Part shown: one piece after another, positions 7,644 to 36,852 of the stretch
How positions within the stretch are numbered: position 1 is the stretch's first letter
How the letters are laid out: each line of letters begins with the position of its first letter
DNA from: Thermoleophilia bacterium
GTDB taxonomy: Bacteria; Actinomycetota; Thermoleophilia; BMS3ABIN01
NCBI GenBank assembly: GCA_014859345.1
Contig: JACUUL010000016.1
Location: 1 to 39,639 of the forward strand
Direction of reading: 5' to 3'
Length of the DNA stretch: 39,639 bases
Notes under the pieces: model-generated
What the model was told of the DNA's origin: nothing
Database searches by the model: none
Seen by the model: the letters and a program-made list of their open reading frames with translations, nothing else
Position numbers and translations under genes: made by a program

Positions 7644-8965
7644 CTAGTCGAGGTCCAGGACTGTGCCCTCGACCTCATTGAAAAATCCCTTCCAGAGCAC
7701 CCGCTGGGAGGCCAGCACCTGCCGCCGGTCAGCGGGATTGGACCACGAGCCTCCCCGGTCATAGGCGCGAACCTCGACCGGGCCGGACATAACCCCGTCA
7801 AACCGGACCGGAGCCATCGCCTGCGCGCTCCCGGCCTCCGCCAGATTGAATGTGCCCCGGTGCCTGCCTCCGATATGGACTTCGGCGGTCACGGGGTTCT
7901 CATTTTCGAGATTGGCTATTACCACCCAGTTGGCAACTCCCTCGGAAAAATCGTCATACCAGGTCCAGTGATAACGGGAATCAAGCCTGTCGCCCGGAAA
8001 GCCGGGGAGCTCCTCGAAGGACTCCCCCCAGGCAACGCGCTGCGAAGCTATCACCCTGGCCGGCATCCCGCCCTCTTTATTCCATGCCCGCACCTCGACG
8101 GGCCCCCCCATGACCCCGGGGAAGGTCGGAGTCGCGTAATTGGCGCCTGTCAGGCCGCCCGCCGGGTCAAGCGTTCCCGTCCGGCAGCGGGCGCTGATGC
8201 CGGCTGCGCATCCTCCGGCGATGCTGATCTGGTACTCAATCACATTGGCCGGGTCCGGATTGGCCACTAAAACCCAGTTTCTGGCGCCGGGACTGAAGTT
8301 GTCATACCAGGTCCAGTAGTAGTGATCTGACAGCTCCCGGGCAGGGATGCCCGATACCTCGTTAAAGGACAGGCCGTCACCGGATGTCACCCGCTGGGAG
8401 GCCATCACCCTGGCCGGGATTCCGGGGTTTGAGGTTTCCCATGCCCGCACCTCGACAGGCCCTCCCATGAAGCCGGGGAAGTTCGGCGTTACTTCCTGGC
8501 CAGGAGGTATGTCAAAAATTTCCGATACCAAGGCGCCCGTACCGTTGTCGATAAAGGATATTTCCGCGCTCACGGGCTGCGATCCGGGGTTCGCGACCAG
8601 GACCCAGTTCTTATATCCGGGGCTGAGTTCGTCATACCATGGCCAGTAATAATGGTCCCAGAGGCGGTTTTCATCAAAGGCCAGTGTCTCCTCCAGGGAG
8701 TCTCCATAGAGGATTCTCTGGGAAATGAGAGCCGGCAGGCCGGAAAGCTTGGTGACTTTCACTGGACCGCCCATGGCTCCCGGCCAGGTGGTATAGGCGG
8801 TCTTGCCGTGCATGGCGGTCTTGTAAGCGGTCTTCATATCGGGCGGACTGCCCAGCTGCGCCCAGAAATGGGCCTCGCCGCCAAAACTGTCGGGGTGCGA
8901 GGTAAGCAGCCAGTTCTTCATTCCCGGGGTGAACTGGTCATACCAGGTGAAATAGGAGCTGGTGG
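7644..8965 (-). repeat. four tandem protein-level repeats (about 306-350 bp each)
   Basis: The WYD codons, read on the plus strand as GTCATACCA, recur at 7953, 8301, 8631 and 8937, so the spacing is 348, 330 and 306 bases. The WYD and GPVEVRA segments are conserved at DNA level while the middle of each unit differs in length. This fits an old domain duplication, not a recent one. Confidence 0.8.
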
Positions 8966-10205
8966 CAAAAGTCAGTGTCCAGTCAAGCAGCTTGGGTGTC
9001 TTGAAGCGGTCGTACGTATAAAGATTGATTTTTATTTTGAGGCTGGGGAAAAGCTCAGGATCCAGGCCGGAAAGGTTTACGGCATTGCTGCCGAAACCTT
9101 CCTTGTTTCCCGGCAGATAAGGCTCGGGCACCAGGTTGTCCGGGTAAGGCAAAGGACTGGTGGCGTCGATCACCTCCACGGTGACTTTCTGGCCGTCCAG
9201 GGCTGTGGTGGTCAGCACCTCCCCCCAGCCCAGGCCTTCGGCCAGGTCCTCATCGGTCAGGGTCACCACCGGCGATACCGTGTAACCGTGGGTAGGCAGG
9301 GGTCCGGTTCCTCCATAACATATCGACGGTTCCGGACACGGCTGCTCCAGTTGCAAAAAATCGCACTGCCCGAAGGTGCAGCCCTCACCCTTGGTGTTGA
9401 CTTTTTCATTTTCCTGGCCGAGCTCGAAATTGACCCAGGTCGTATGCCCGAAAAGATTGTACCTGCCTCTGACCATAACCTCCTGGAAGGTCGTCTCCAC
9501 CAGATATGTCCCGTGTTCGGCGCAGGGAACAGGGTAATAATAGGTGCAGCTGTTCTGGGCCACTGAAAGCAGAAAAATGTCGGGGTTGGAGCTCATGGGT
9601 TTGTTGTTGCGGGTCAGAAGCAGCACGTCATTGACGTAATAGCGAAAGGTGCCCTTGCCGTCATAATCCAGGCGCAGCTTGTAGAACTGGTCCCGGGGCA
9701 GATTTCCGTTTATGCCACCAGTGGCGGGAAAAGCCGCCGCGCTGTTTGGCAGCAGGGTGGCGATGTCATTTTCGAGAGCGTAAGCCCGCAGGCCGCCGGA
9801 CGTGACATTGTCGAAGAGGCAGATCTCATAGTACTCGCTCTCGCCGGCATAAATCGTTATGCCCGCGAAATACTGGGTTTCGGCGGCATTCGGCCCGATC
9901 GGGCCAACCTTTACCAGACTCTCGACGCTGATCGGGGCGTTCCTGTTAAAGGCCTGCCTGGTCTCTATGCCCCAGCTGTCGCCCGTCATGACCAGGTTCA
10001 TGCCGTCCGGTTCTCCGGGCACAAACGAAAACTGGTCGGTCGCCGGATTAAAGGTATGCGGATACCACTTGTCGAGATTCTGGCCCGTCCAGTCCTCAAT
10101 CCACACCGAGCCTGCGGAGGCATCGGCGCCCGGCATGGCCAGCAGGCCGAAGGCCGCGGCCAGCAGCGAAGCGGCAGCTATGAAAAAAGATCTGCGGATA
10201 AGCAT
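7644..10205 (-). CDS. large secreted protein with four C-terminal tandem repeats, function unknown
   Basis: From the ATG at 10205, preceded by GAGGT with seven bases between, the protein has 853 residues and a clear signal peptide (LIRRSFFIAAASLLAAAF, cleavage near ADASAGS). A longer in-frame start at 10244 would place the signal peptide internally. Residues about 30-230 look like a beta-rich, concanavalin-like jelly roll (inference). The last 430 residues are four tandem repeats of about 100-115 residues. Each opens with YxWxWYDxFSPG.xNWVLVANP and continues with a MGGPVEVRA block and an ASQRV block; the WYD motifs fall near residues 421, 523, 633 and 749. The repeats look extracellular, but I do not recognise a named domain. 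The gene lies opposite to its housekeeping neighbours, next to an ABC exporter. Confidence 0.8.
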   Translation of the reverse strand: MLIRRSFFIAAASLLAAAFGLLAMPGADASAGSVWIEDWTGQNLDKWYPHTFNPATDQFSFVPGEPDGMNLVMTGDSWGIETRQAFNRNAPISVESLVKVGPIGPNAAETQYFAGITIYAGESEYYEICLFDNVTSGGLRAYALENDIATLLPNSAAAFPATGGINGNLPRDQFYKLRLDYDGKGTFRYYVNDVLLLTRNNKPMSSNPDIFLLSVAQNSCTYYYPVPCAEHGTYLVETTFQEVMVRGRYNLFGHTTWVNFELGQENEKVNTKGEGCTFGQCDFLQLEQPCPEPSICYGGTGPLPTHGYTVSPVVTLTDEDLAEGLGWGEVLTTTALDGQKVTVEVIDATSPLPYPDNLVPEPYLPGNKEGFGSNAVNLSGLDPELFPSLKIKINLYTYDRFKTPKLLDWTLTFATSSYFTWYDQFTPGMKNWLLTSHPDSFGGEAHFWAQLGSPPDMKTAYKTAMHGKTAYTTWPGAMGGPVKVTKLSGLPALISQRILYGDSLEETLAFDENRLWDHYYWPWYDELSPGYKNWVLVANPGSQPVSAEISFIDNGTGALVSEIFDIPPGQEVTPNFPGFMGGPVEVRAWETSNPGIPARVMASQRVTSGDGLSFNEVSGIPARELSDHYYWTWYDNFSPGARNWVLVANPDPANVIEYQISIAGGCAAGISARCRTGTLDPAGGLTGANYATPTFPGVMGGPVEVRAWNKEGGMPARVIASQRVAWGESFEELPGFPGDRLDSRYHWTWYDDFSEGVANWVVIANLENENPVTAEVHIGGRHRGTFNLAEAGSAQAMAPVRFDGVMSGPVEVRAYDRGGSWSNPADRRQVLASQRVLWKGFFNEVEGTVLDLD

Positions 10206-10350: not shown

Positions 10351-11961
10351 CTAGCCGGCGCCGCTGCCGATGTCTCGCCGGGCAAGGCCCGTCAGTCCCG
10401 CGGCTGTCAGCCCCGCGCCGACGCCAAAAAGCAAGGCCAGAGGAGCCATGGACAGCTCGCCTCCGGGCAGGTTCGGGACATGGGTAAAAGGCGAAAGATC
10501 CAGGATCCACTGGCTCAGCTGCATGACCGGTCCCACCTGACCGATCAGCAGGAACAGGGCCAGCGCCCCCCAACTGACGGCGGACAGCCGGGGCAATAGG
10601 CCGAAAAGCGCCACCGAGATTCCGACCAGCACCCAGACGGCCGGCAACTGCACCATGGCCGCGGCCAGCACCCGAGGCAGCTGGTGACTCAAATCGCCAC
10701 TGATCAGACCATAGGTCATTCCTGATGTAAAACCGGCCACCGCCAGCAGGACAACCGGCCCTATCACTGCGAAGATCAGGTGGCCGGCAGCCCACGACAA
10801 CCGTCGCACCGAGGTGGCCAGGACGGGTTCGGCGCGCAGTGCCGTTTCCTCGACCCTGAGCCGCAACGCGGCCTGGACCGCGTATGCCGAAGCCGCCAGG
10901 GCGAATATGCCCATTATGCCGGCGAAAAAGGCATCCACCAGCGCCGCGGTGCCGCCGATTCTTTCGAATATCAACCTCAGCTGGGGGCTGTCGCCCAGCA
11001 GTGTCACCACATTATCGGCGACACCGCCATACATGACTCCGAACACCGCAAAGCCCGCGATCCAGGCAAACAGGGTGTTGCGATGCAGCCGCCAGGCCAG
11101 GGACATCGGGCCGCGCAGCCAGGGCGGCGCGGCGGCCGGACCGAGCCGCGGCCGCAAGACGCCAGCGCCGACATCCCGCCTCGATGAAAGCAGCATGGCC
11201 GCGAAGACCAGAATCACAACGAAACCCAGGGCCAGCGCCAAGATCCACCAGCGCTCACCGGCGTAAGCGCGCACGCGCTGCGCCCAGCCCAGCGCAGAAA
11301 GCCACGACAGCCAGGAAAGCCTGCTGCCTTCCTCCCCGACGTCGCCCACGGCGCGCAACAGGTACGACAAACCCAGAGCGCCAATGGCGATGCCTCTGGC
11401 CGCGGCCGAGCTTTCGGTCAGCTGCGCGGTCACCGATCCGACGGCGGCGAACACCCATCCTACCGCCGCCAGCGACAACCCGAAGGCGATCGAACCAACA
11501 GGGGGGTGGCCCATCCCGATCATGCCCAGGGCCAGCAGCGCCGCCAGGGCCAGATTTGCGCCGAATGTCACTATCAGGGCAGAGGCCAGTTGGGAATGGC
11601 GGCCAACCACGGTGGAGCCCAGCAGTTCCCGCCTCCCTGTCTCTTCCTCGACCCGGGTATGCCTGATCACAGTCAGCAGGCTGGCCAGTCCAACCAGCAC
11701 CACCACCGGAGCCGACCGCCAGGCGGTTAGAGCGCCGATGCTCGAGTCGAAAATGGGGCCGAACAAGAGCAGGAACGACGGATTTCTGCCGCTGGTGGCG
11801 ACAAACGCCTGCCGCTGCTCCGCAGTGGGGTAAAGTTCCTGGAACGCAGACGCGAACATGAGCGGAGTGAGTGCCAGGGCGGCGATCCAGAGGAACAGGA
11901 GAAACCGGTCCCTGCGCAGGATCAGCCAGATCACCCTGCCGGCGCCAACCAGAGATTTCAA
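10351..11961 (-). CDS. ABC-2 type exporter permease, polyketide-antibiotic (TnrB3-like) family
   Basis: A 536-residue integral membrane protein with about twelve hydrophobic segments, formed of two similar halves: each has an N-terminal helix, an FGP/FE loop and an RVEEE/RVEET motif ([15 protein letters not shown] near residue 105 and [14 protein letters not shown] near 380). This layout is that of the large permeases for polyketide antibiotic export such as the tetronasin exporter. Its ATG overlaps the stop of the ATPase gene by four bases (ATGA), so both are made together. The substrate is unknown; drug or lipid export is inferred from the family. Confidence 0.8.
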
Positions 11962-12887
11962 CGGGATTCCTTCGTGTTCTTGCCTTCCTCTTCGCCGCCC
12001 TTCAGGCGACCCCTGTAGTGAAGCATGAACAGCTCCTCCAGCGTCGGCGGCTGGCTGATAAGATCCTTGATCCCCACCGATGTCAGATGAGCAAGAACAG
12101 CGTTTAGCTGATCGGTGTCGACCTCGAATCGCACCCGGGATCCATCGGACTGCAGATCGTATACGCCGGGCAGCCCGTCCAGTCCGGGCGCCGGGCGGGC
12201 CAGAACGGCCTTGATCGAGGTGCGTGTCAGGTGCCTGAGTTCGGCGAGTGAGCCGCTCTCCACAACGCGCCCTTCGCGAATGATCGTTACCCTGTTGCAG
12301 AGCGCCTCCACCTCGGCGAGGATGTGGCTGGAAAGCAGCACGGTGCGCCCGTTATGCCGCTCCTCAGTTATATATTCGCGGAAAATCGCGTCCATCAGCG
12401 GGTCAAGACCCGCAGTCGGCTCATCCAGAAGGAGCAGCTCGACATTTGAAGCGAGGGCGGCAATCAAGGCAACCTTCTGCCGGTTCCCCTTTGAGTAGCT
12501 GCGGCCCTTCTTCCTGGTATCCAGCTCGAATCTTTCCAGAAGTTCGTCCCGGCGCCGGATGTTCAGCCCGCCGCGCATCCGCCCCAGCAGATCGATGATC
12601 TCGCCGCCGGTGAGGCTGGGCCAGAGCATGACGTCGCCGGGAACGTAAGCCAGGCGGCGGTGAAGCTCGGTGGCGTCATGCCAGGGGTCGCCACCCAGAA
12701 GCCGGGCTGTGCCAGAGTCTGCCCGGAGCAGGCCCAGCAGTATCCGGAGAGTCGTGGTCTTGCCGGAGCCGTTCGGCCCCAGGAAGCCATGCACCTCTCC
12801 TTCTTCCACGGTGAGATCGAGGCCGTCAAGCGCATGCGTCGGGCCAAAGAACTTATGCAATCCGGATATCGAGATCACAGCTGTCAT
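11958..12887 (-). CDS. ABC exporter ATPase, DrrA/TnrB2-like
   Basis: Nucleotide-binding subunit of 309 residues. Walker A is GPNGSGKTT, Walker B is [12 protein letters not shown], and the switch His lies in LLSSHILAE. The signature loop reads [11 protein letters not shown] instead of LSGGQ, which is the variant found with ABC-2 permeases of this type. The C-terminal 90 residues form a regulatory tail as in DrrA-type ATPases. It precedes the permease with a four-base overlap. The ATG lies at the left edge of a 167-base region shared with rdgB. Confidence 0.9.
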
Positions 12888-35421: not shown

Positions 35422-36852
35422 TTGAACAGGTTCGTTTTTATCCTGATGGTTCTGCTTTTGGTGACGAGCGCTGTCCTGCTTACATCCTGCGAGGTCGATT
35501 CAGGCCAGGTGGACAACGACAGGCCCCCGTCAGACCAGCCGCCGGGGGAAAGGGAATACGATCTGGACGGAACCGGCAGGGCGGTTGCGGAATCGCTGGG
35601 TGATAACGCCGTGGCGGCTTACGCGATCATGAAAGCCTCTGATAACGGATATTCGCCGTACCAGATAGCCCGTGCGATCGACGAGGGATTACTGGTCGAG
35701 TCGGGCGAGATCGAAGGGGTGACCCCCGCGCGGCCCGGCGGGAACGTCCTCTCTGACCGTGATGGCGAGGTCCGCTCCCGCTTCGCTTCCCATGCCGGAA
35801 GCACCGCCGCGCCGGCCGTCTTTGCCAGGGCCGCTGACGGGCCCACCAGCCTGAGCGATTTCGAACAGATGTTTGAGGAGATCAGAGGCGCGGACCAGGC
35901 TGGGCGCTGGCTGGTATGGCTGCTTGGCGCCACCGGCGCCGGATACAGCGTCGAGGAGATCACTGATTACTTGGGCCGGAACACGCCGTTGGCAGACTTC
36001 GAGCCACCCATGGCCTTCGGCGTGCCGGTTATCGTGGATGATGACGGCGTTTTGGTTACGCCGGAACTTCCCGCCGACTGGCCCTACAAGGGCAGAAATA
36101 TCCTCAGCGGGCTGGCCGGCAATCCGGACCTGACCTTCGATGATAATTTTACCGTGCTGGTCATCGGGATGGTGAACGCCGGCTATTCAATCAGCCAGAT
36201 AAACGAGGCTGTCACCATCAATAGCATCGGTATGTGCGCCACCGCTGGCGGCTCCGCTGAAACCGATGCCGCCCGGCTCACTCCCTGTTACGTGCAGGGT
36301 GGGAGCATTACGCCTCCGGACGAGGCGACGAAGTGGTCGCCGGCGCGGATACTGACCGAAAACGTGATCCCGGAATGGCCGATCAGCATCACCAGTGCCA
36401 TTCCCCCCAACAAAAGTGGCGACCTGGAGAGCGGGAGTAAAGTCAGCCTGAAACTGATTCCGACCCTTCCCTCCCCGGACACCACCAAGGCCATTAAATC
36501 ATATGAAATTATTATCGAAGTGGATCCCAGCCCCGAGAGGGGTTACGAAGTCACCGGCTATTACATGATCGAGCTTATCCAGGAGTTCACAGAGGATCAT
36601 GTTGGCGGCAACGACAAGGGGGAAAGATGGGTCATCGAGGGAGAAATCTTCAGCGACGAGCCGGTCGTTCTGCTTTCCAATCTGGACCAACCCACGCTAC
36701 ACACCGTAACTCATTACTCACCCGATGGAAAAGTTACCTACACACTCACGGACGAATACAAGCAGGGTTTTAAGGGGTCACTCGACGATGATCTGGAGGG
36801 CGACGGCCTGCTGAACAATTCTATTATCCGGATCAACTGGGAGACCGAGTAG
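35422..36852 (+). CDS. lipoprotein with three GYS-repeat motifs, function unknown
   Basis: A 476-residue protein with a lipoprotein signal (FILMVLLLVTSAVLLTSC, lipobox LLTSC). It starts with TTG, GGGAGG six bases upstream. Three helical units share a motif: AAYAIMKASDNGYSPYQIARAI at residue 76, LVWLLGATGAGYSVEEITDYL at 174 and LVIGMVNAGYSISQINEAV at 254. The last 150 residues look beta-rich (KSYEIIIEVDPSPERGYEVTG, TVTHYSPDGKVTYTL). No known domain is recognised. It would sit on the outer face of the cytoplasmic membrane. Confidence 0.75.
   Translation: MNRFVFILMVLLLVTSAVLLTSCEVDSGQVDNDRPPSDQPPGEREYDLDGTGRAVAESLGDNAVAAYAIMKASDNGYSPYQIARAIDEGLLVESGEIEGVTPARPGGNVLSDRDGEVRSRFASHAGSTAAPAVFARAADGPTSLSDFEQMFEEIRGADQAGRWLVWLLGATGAGYSVEEITDYLGRNTPLADFEPPMAFGVPVIVDDDGVLVTPELPADWPYKGRNILSGLAGNPDLTFDDNFTVLVIGMVNAGYSISQINEAVTINSIGMCATAGGSAETDAARLTPCYVQGGSITPPDEATKWSPARILTENVIPEWPISITSAIPPNKSGDLESGSKVSLKLIPTLPSPDTTKAIKSYEIIIEVDPSPERGYEVTGYYMIELIQEFTEDHVGGNDKGERWVIEGEIFSDEPVVLLSNLDQPTLHTVTHYSPDGKVTYTLTDEYKQGFKGSLDDDLEGDGLLNNSIIRINWETE

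Follow-up and report, generated by a model that had tools for sequence, protein, structure and literature searches.

The closest described relatives of the protein module considered here belong to the ASRAH superfamily, whose reference structure is TM1070 (PDB 1nc7; PMC2739507). Proteins with a solo ASRAH domain assemble into tetramers (De Souza, Iyer and Aravind 2009, PMC2739507); secreted forms occur as 'dyads' in actinobacterial lipoproteins and as amidase-fused 'tetrads' in Roseiflexus, Chloroflexus and relatives, and the same authors predicted that the domain binds sugar (PMC2739507). We analysed a stretch of 39,639 nucleotides (the window) from a Thermoleophilia bacterium (contig JACUUL010000016.1), in which one gene encodes an 853-residue protein ending in four tandem repeats, here called WYD units after their motif. 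The WYD module is probably a divergent, lineage-specific ASRAH tetrad, whose most likely role is to anchor exported proteins on a cell-envelope glycan.

The four units (102, 110, 116 and 109 residues as cut) follow one another without linkers and fill residues ∼ 417–853. Units 1, 3 and 4 are 36, 52 and 39% identical to unit 2, and 19 columns are invariant across the four. A profile built from them gave 41 matches in the organism's own 2.08-Mb genome, 37 of them outside the window gene, which excludes repeats by chance. The tandem repeats reported by an initial annotation of this DNA, made by eye from the letters, are thus real and do run to the C-terminus as described; their motif and placement needed small corrections, since unit 1 is the most diverged (YFTWYD) and the repeats begin in mid-protein, at about residue 417.

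That annotation had also proposed predicting the structure of a unit. We modelled the whole four-unit module with AlphaFold2, using the window's module and 78 relatives (alignment A3; 78 of 81 four-unit modules, two of locus L106 and the cut one of L126 being left out). In the model (predicted local distance difference test, pLDDT, 96; predicted template modelling score, pTM, 0.93) the units fold as compact beta-sandwiches whose positions relative to one another are defined. The best match found by VIA-align is Thermotoga TM1070 (1nc7; Z 12.3, root mean square deviation, rmsd, 2.6 over 102 residues), with the next row at 6.5; Foldseek gives the same structure a probability of 1.00 and a template modelling (TM) score of 0.63 over the target. 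The matching region, model residues 96–207, contains eight strands of at least three residues, and the model of unit 2 thus has the eight-stranded TM1070-fold beta-sandwich that characterizes the ASRAH superfamily. Inter-unit mutual information, computed over 86 modules as a probe of ring closure, gave no separation of the forward and reverse controls.

The link between WYD units and ASRT is direct in fold and transitive in sequence, the latter running through a second kind of repeat, the AEG unit. A search of the phylum with PF07100 (ASRT) gave matches at E 0.001 in 59 of 396 genomes, some of them strong and solo, others weak and inside long open reading frames (ORFs). Twenty of the weak-match places make up the AEG set, and two of these seeded the AEG profile, which was then iterated over the same loci. 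Seventeen of the 20 loci have an ORF with exactly four units, and the other three have one with two units. In 14 of these 17 ORFs no more than 32 residues separate the last unit from the frame's end; in the remaining three the units are followed by 194–259 residues (M23 in L207, M28 in L209; the third is L198). Among the seven AEG proteins scanned, six exceeded the Pfam cut-off for ASRT and all seven that for DUF5719 (PF18986). In hhalign, WYD matches AEG with a probability of 93 and a score of 40.9 (60 column shuffles, ≤ 17.8), and AEG matches ASRT with a probability of 97 and a score of 62.7 (60 shuffles, ≤ 16.6); the ASRT profile comprised 10 sequences picked by regular expression, of which one (L157) is out of frame towards its end. 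Control comparisons of WYD with reversed AEG, LGFP and GWAIDPDT profiles scored 16, 11 and 17. The Asn at the end of strand 2, a near-invariant ASRAH feature, is present in 68 of 72 WYD units, and hhalign places it in register with AEG and, via AEG, with ASRT. DUF5719 also matches eight of 79 WYD modules weakly at E ≤ 0.1 (best 6.9e-5). The SHExxCxxN signature of solo ASRT (PF07100) is absent from the WYD units. The initial view of repeats unlike the common surface repeats, if taken to mean an isolated novel domain, does not survive the fold and profile–profile comparisons, which place them in the ASRAH/ASRT superfamily. The same annotation had named a match to a domain of clear function as the result that would overturn it; such a match was reached only indirectly, and the function of the superfamily is itself a prediction.

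The number of units per protein is nearly fixed. A scan of genome contigs confirmed 92 stretches, of which 80 were kept; of its 78 named loci, 75 are labelled Actinomycetota and three are unplaced. Four units are found in 65 of the 76 unit-bearing ORFs that are uncut by a locus end, and two more have eight, arranged as two groups of four. This is the count that a covalent ASRT tetramer would need, and it matches the occurrence of ASRAH domains as tetramer, dyad or tetrad. Placement is similarly regular: in 72 of 87 proteins with at least four units (a count that includes L126, cut by its contig end) the chain ends at most two residues past the last unit, too soon for a sortase motif or a membrane anchor to fit. 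The space after unit 4 of the window protein is likewise too short for either. A hydrophobic stretch near the start was detected by a crude heuristic in 75 of the 87. The module is internal to the chain, not terminal, in the amidase–SpoIID proteins. At seven loci (L029, L056, L072, L081, L087, L118 and L119) an extra C-terminal tail of 111–114 residues follows unit 4; by eye, several of these tails start alike, and they may be a separate conserved domain.

The partners of the module are varied. Its companion regions, in 81 pieces, matched 58 Pfam families at E 1e-4; among the 25 families listed the commonest are Big_13 (13), Big_5 (9), PSII_BNR (8), NosD, Beta_helix and Big_7 (7 each), followed by BNR (6), CAP (5), S8 and M4 proteases (4 each) and Amidase_2 and SpoIID (3 each). 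In the window's own genome, 10 of 12 unit-bearing proteins have exactly four units, mostly C-terminal: the window gene and nine genes on nine other contigs. The other two are a protein whose two units are very weak and one truncated at a contig end. The following partners occur in this genome, where a single module type is joined to at least seven kinds of partner:

M4 thermolysin with Big_5
Amidase_2 before the units and SpoIID after them
NosD beta-helix
YCF48-type BNR propeller
Glucosaminidase (L028)
CAP with Big_7, start cut by a contig end
1216-residue frame with a weak Laminin_G_3 match
Two proteins with nothing recognized

The protein with the two very weak units (L031 3716–6253, + strand, G000:C3) has Big_13 domains; its units are WYD-like but strongly diverged, scoring 7 and 12.5 bits, and it is perhaps a decayed or intermediate form.

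The WYD form was confined to one bacterial family in the genomes searched, as the initial annotation anticipated when it spoke of a domain of its lineage. The first WYD profile, with at most 78 matches scored per genome, found units in 14 of 19 members of the window's family and in none of 41 other genomes of its class (14 of 60 relatives). Bearing genomes held from 15 to at least 78 units, or roughly 4 to 20 proteins per relative. The five WYD-less genomes of the family are 69–100% complete. Two further profiles were run on the 396 genomes of the phylum with 12 candidates per genome, and since limited candidates were scored all copy numbers are lower bounds. The wider WYD profile (A5) matched seven of seven sampled family members and, weakly (3.3e-6), one AEG-bearing genome. 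The AEG profile (A8, 28 of 34 picked AEG units) matched 73 genomes and none of the seven from the window's family; all 12 scored candidates matched in 32 of the 73, and one or a few weaker matches were found in the others. The 73 include one genome (G044) from the window's class, though of a different family. Within the samples searched, the WYD and AEG forms thus occur in different lineages. Viral contigs searched with the repeat patterns gave no match. A first look at AEG candidates counted 546, 372 and 351 in G142, G162 and G111, with 12 scored in each, which suggests very large expansions. Besides its WYD tetrads, the window's genome has a gene for a solo ASRT protein (L133, G000:C46:13385-13693; PF07100, 146.9 bits), the sole PF07100 match among the 19 family genomes searched.

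Related enzymes in this family carry different tails in the place of the WYD module. We surveyed two partner families across the 19 genomes, covering 16 of 17 Amidase_2 places (a 285-residue frame, G018:C47, was left out) and 11 of 14 M4 places (frames of 298–375 residues in G010, G002 and G014 were left out). Among the 16 amidase ORFs, five have WYD units, eight LGFP repeats and one GWAIDPDT repeats, and two are cut by contig ends; the 11 M4 ORFs divide into nine with WYD, one with LGFP (G011) and one with GWAIDPDT (G004). The tail sits between Amidase_2 and SpoIID in both G000 and G011. The G004 amidase has no recognized SpoIID part, and the G011 M4 protein is without the Big_5 domain present in G000 and G004. 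A glucosaminidase of G004, like L028 of the window's genome by domain, also has GWAIDPDT repeats. In a tree of 15 of the 16 amidase rows (the G012 piece is short; the two contig-end-cut rows were treated as their own group), the well-supported branches imply three or more changes of the WYD label, and comparison with shuffled labels shows no excess clustering (six changes in total; 93 of 200 shuffles as low). Two label changes are needed in the M4 tree. All five WYD-less family genomes have one of the other two repeats, LGFP in G011, G015 and G017 and GWAIDPDT in G004 and G008; PF08310 (LGFP) gave no match in the window's own genome. The GWAIDPDT repeat (∼ 105 residues, GWAIDPDT.DPIDVH.YV...VC.YGIN.G.G.N.LLGC) is present in four or more proteins encoded on contig C11 of G004 (L243, L262), matched no Pfam family at E 0.001 in the three proteins scanned and looks like a third attachment module.

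Mutants and pull-downs are reported to have shown an interaction of the LGFP domains of C. glutamicum MytA with peptidoglycan–arabinogalactan (PMC11299179, with Dietrich et al. 2020 given as the primary paper), and LGFP is also reported as a proposed wall anchor of the Corynebacterium PS1 protein (PMC3314691). Because related enzymes swap the WYD tail for a known cell-wall-binding tail, the WYD module is most likely a glue that holds secreted proteins to the cell. The exchange with LGFP, together with the signal-like starts noted above, agrees with the surface location that the initial annotation had proposed; we do not favour an adhesive role towards other surfaces.

We suggest the following model. 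The four repeats would act as one functional module, a covalent, one-chain version of the solo ASRT/TM1070 tetramer, and may close into a ring. In one family of uncultured Actinomycetota the module is a movable tail of exported proteins, placed mostly at the C-terminus. Once exported, the tetrad most likely binds a repeating envelope glycan, either peptidoglycan-linked or a secondary polysaccharide, and probably uses several sites located at the unit interfaces or close to them. Wall tethering of this kind would keep proteases, wall hydrolases and lectin-like proteins, including the concanavalin A-like one of the window, on the cell and prevent their diffusion. Of these elements, the computation shows the fold, the tie to the superfamily, the almost constant number of four, the position, the range of partners and the exchange for LGFP or GWAIDPDT in related enzymes, whereas closure of the ring, binding of glycan and tethering to the wall are inferences.

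Several observations weigh against this model. By E-value, Foldseek ranks 1nc7 only 42nd (E 0.013). WYD and ASRT gave no direct match in hhalign (probability 1.2), the A5 profile found no ASRT chain among the PDB sequences, and the window protein matched neither PF07100 at E 1 nor PF18986 (curated cut-off 26.2 bits). The PDB matches that A5 did give (antibody and O-GlcNAcase chains) had E 0.7 or worse and were judged chance. At the ASRAH strand-1 Trp position, 62 of 72 WYD units apparently have Tyr, in an alignment made by eye for a region that hhalign skipped. Other Pfam families match single modules at least as well as DUF5719 does: PLipase_C_C in nine of 79 modules (best 5.8e-6), and AfaD (1.1e-6) and GH30C (8.9e-6) in one of 79 each. 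We judged these and other scattered Pfam matches to reflect generic beta-sandwich likeness. Nine of the 76 uncut ORFs have one to three units; in L110, L118, L061 and L109 the units are split over two frames or start beside a contig end, and L099 (three units), L101 on the minus strand (two) and L127 (two) appear to be true exceptions to four. Seven of the 14 WYD genomes also have LGFP and/or GWAIDPDT, so the module types are not exclusive and the targets of the tails may differ. The swap might mean that hydrolases tend to take up sugar-binding tails of any kind, and its pattern may cover paralogy or transfer as well as tail exchange, kinds that the trees do not separate.

Sugar binding by itself would also fit a carbohydrate-binding module that targets substrate, bringing enzymes to food such as an external polysaccharide or a biofilm matrix. 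The predicted sugar binding of ASRAH domains (PMC2739507) and the many hydrolase or lectin-like partners are consistent with such a role. We nevertheless consider it unlikely, as peptidoglycan enzymes (amidase with SpoIID, glucosaminidase) and non-enzymes (such as BNR propellers) are among the partners, wall-binding LGFP takes the corresponding place in related enzymes, and one module type serves all of the partner kinds listed for the window's genome.

Tandem beta-sandwiches would also fit an adhesive or structural surface repeat, forming a stalk or a cell–cell contact in the manner of Ig-like domains and without specific glycan binding. Foldseek rows 1–41 point the same way, since almost all of them are large chains of several domains, for example complement and receptor ectodomains; these were rejected as relatives (TM < 0.2, rmsd ≥ 18.8). 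Stalk repeats are usually not fixed in number, whereas the count here is nearly fixed at four, and the same proteins have separate Ig domains (Big_5, Big_7, Big_13), which makes this role improbable. That the tetrad is a C-terminal sorting signal of a dedicated secretion or attachment system, cut off or processed after export like the type IX C-terminal domain, an example of such signals, is very improbable despite its many unrelated cargoes and its usual C-terminal position, since it spans 440 residues, is rigid and internally four-fold, lies inside the amidase–SpoIID chains and is replaced by LGFP, a binding module.

Envelope tethering by an ASRAH-type tetrad is the reading that we apply to the window gene, whose parts are as follows:

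7644..10205, minus strand: whole gene, 853-residue ORF with signal peptide, concanavalin A-like domain, second beta-rich region and four WYD (ASRAH-type) units
10116..10205, minus strand: putative signal peptide, residues ∼ 1–30, judged from the sequence
9435..10079, minus strand: N-terminal domain, residues ∼ 43–257, concanavalin A-like lectin/glucanase jelly roll, from a low-confidence model and structure matches
8958..9434, minus strand: second beta-rich region, residues ∼ 258–416, low pLDDT, without a convincing Pfam or NCBIfam match
8652..8957, minus strand: WYD/ASRAH unit 1, from the alignment and the four-unit profile (E 2.5e-43; this unit, like the next three, is in its own profile by construction)
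8322..8651, minus strand: WYD/ASRAH unit 2 (profile E 7.0e-47, by construction), within the model residues 96–207 that match 1nc7
7977..8321, minus strand: WYD/ASRAH unit 3 (profile E 1.5e-48, by construction)
7659..7973, minus strand: WYD/ASRAH unit 4 (profile E 1.8e-42, by construction), with the protein stopping just after it

The N-terminal part has relatives in L053, L054 and L108 at 45–46% identity, and in all three WYD units come after it (L108 is cut at its 3' end). Its model, built from four sequences, is poor (pLDDT 55, pTM 0.52). The 50 structure matches listed for it have Z 13.2–14.6, nearly all of them on model residues 17–231, and are mostly glucanases of the concanavalin A fold, alginate lyases and CBM66. 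Because the model is of low confidence we assign a fold only to the concanavalin A-like half. Pfam matches of the whole protein all lie below the cut-off (Malectin, in the N-terminal domain, E 0.006; Ornatin 0.021; VMAP-M19 0.097). An NCBIfam scan of the whole protein gave no match, and a PDB sequence search with it gave a single match at chance level (E 0.6). The window protein is likely to be a surface protein of lectin or glucanase type that carries a tail for tethering.

Adjoining the gene on the same strand, window positions 10351–12887 hold a membrane-protein-like ORF and an ABC-type ATPase ORF; the other flank holds an RNase PH-like ORF. A Ham1 gene lies beyond these. The three ORFs were assigned by eye from their translations. 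A 476-residue ORF at 35422–36852 (+ strand) has no Pfam match at 1e-5.

With this analysis, a domain left unnamed by Pfam and NCBIfam in the window protein gains a fold, a superfamily and a function that can be tested. The analysis also extends the ASRT superfamily, known from a rhodopsin partner and from amidases of photosynthetic bacteria, to a general surface-attachment module. The related enzymes with WYD, LGFP or GWAIDPDT tails form a natural domain-swap experiment that predicts the role of the module, and the WYD-less lineages provide built-in controls for a ligand search. On a wider scale we lean slightly towards the view that the covalent ASRAH tetrads of the WYD and AEG types are a main, hardly noticed envelope attachment system of deep-branching Actinomycetota, placing many exported proteins per genome on a wall glycan specific to the lineage. 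On this view the tetrads share ancestry with the intracellular tetramer of the rhodopsin-transducer family and can be exchanged for LGFP repeats.

Within the collection of papers searched, none describes the WYD module beyond the 2009 superfamily paper (PMC2739507), the only one among those listed as naming ASRAH that deals with the domain, and none mentions DUF5719 or PF18986. Among the known systems, the amidase-associated ASRAH tetrads, compared by description, resemble the WYD module in being secreted, in having four domains in tandem, in their fusion to Amidase_2 (one WYD member of the window's genome) and in the TM1070-type beta-sandwich with an Asn ending strand 2. Unlike them, the WYD module occurs on many unrelated proteins, in Actinomycetota, and has a motif of its own that is too diverged for the ASRT profile. 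Solo ASRT/TM1070 (PF07100, 1nc7) shares the fold, and its tetramer parallels the four units, but it is a single intracellular domain with the SHE..C..N motif, whereas WYD units lack this motif and are fused in fours in exported chains. The AEG tetrads (PF18986/PF07100) of other actinobacterial families are again four tandem units, mostly C-terminal and with varied partners, and differ by their AEG..R.GF..WL.L.NP motif. LGFP (PF08310) is an unrelated repeat of ∼ 54 residues without profile similarity to WYD (the hhalign score of 11 given above), yet it occupies the corresponding position on related partners, and by this analogy the WYD module may work like a wall-binding tail.

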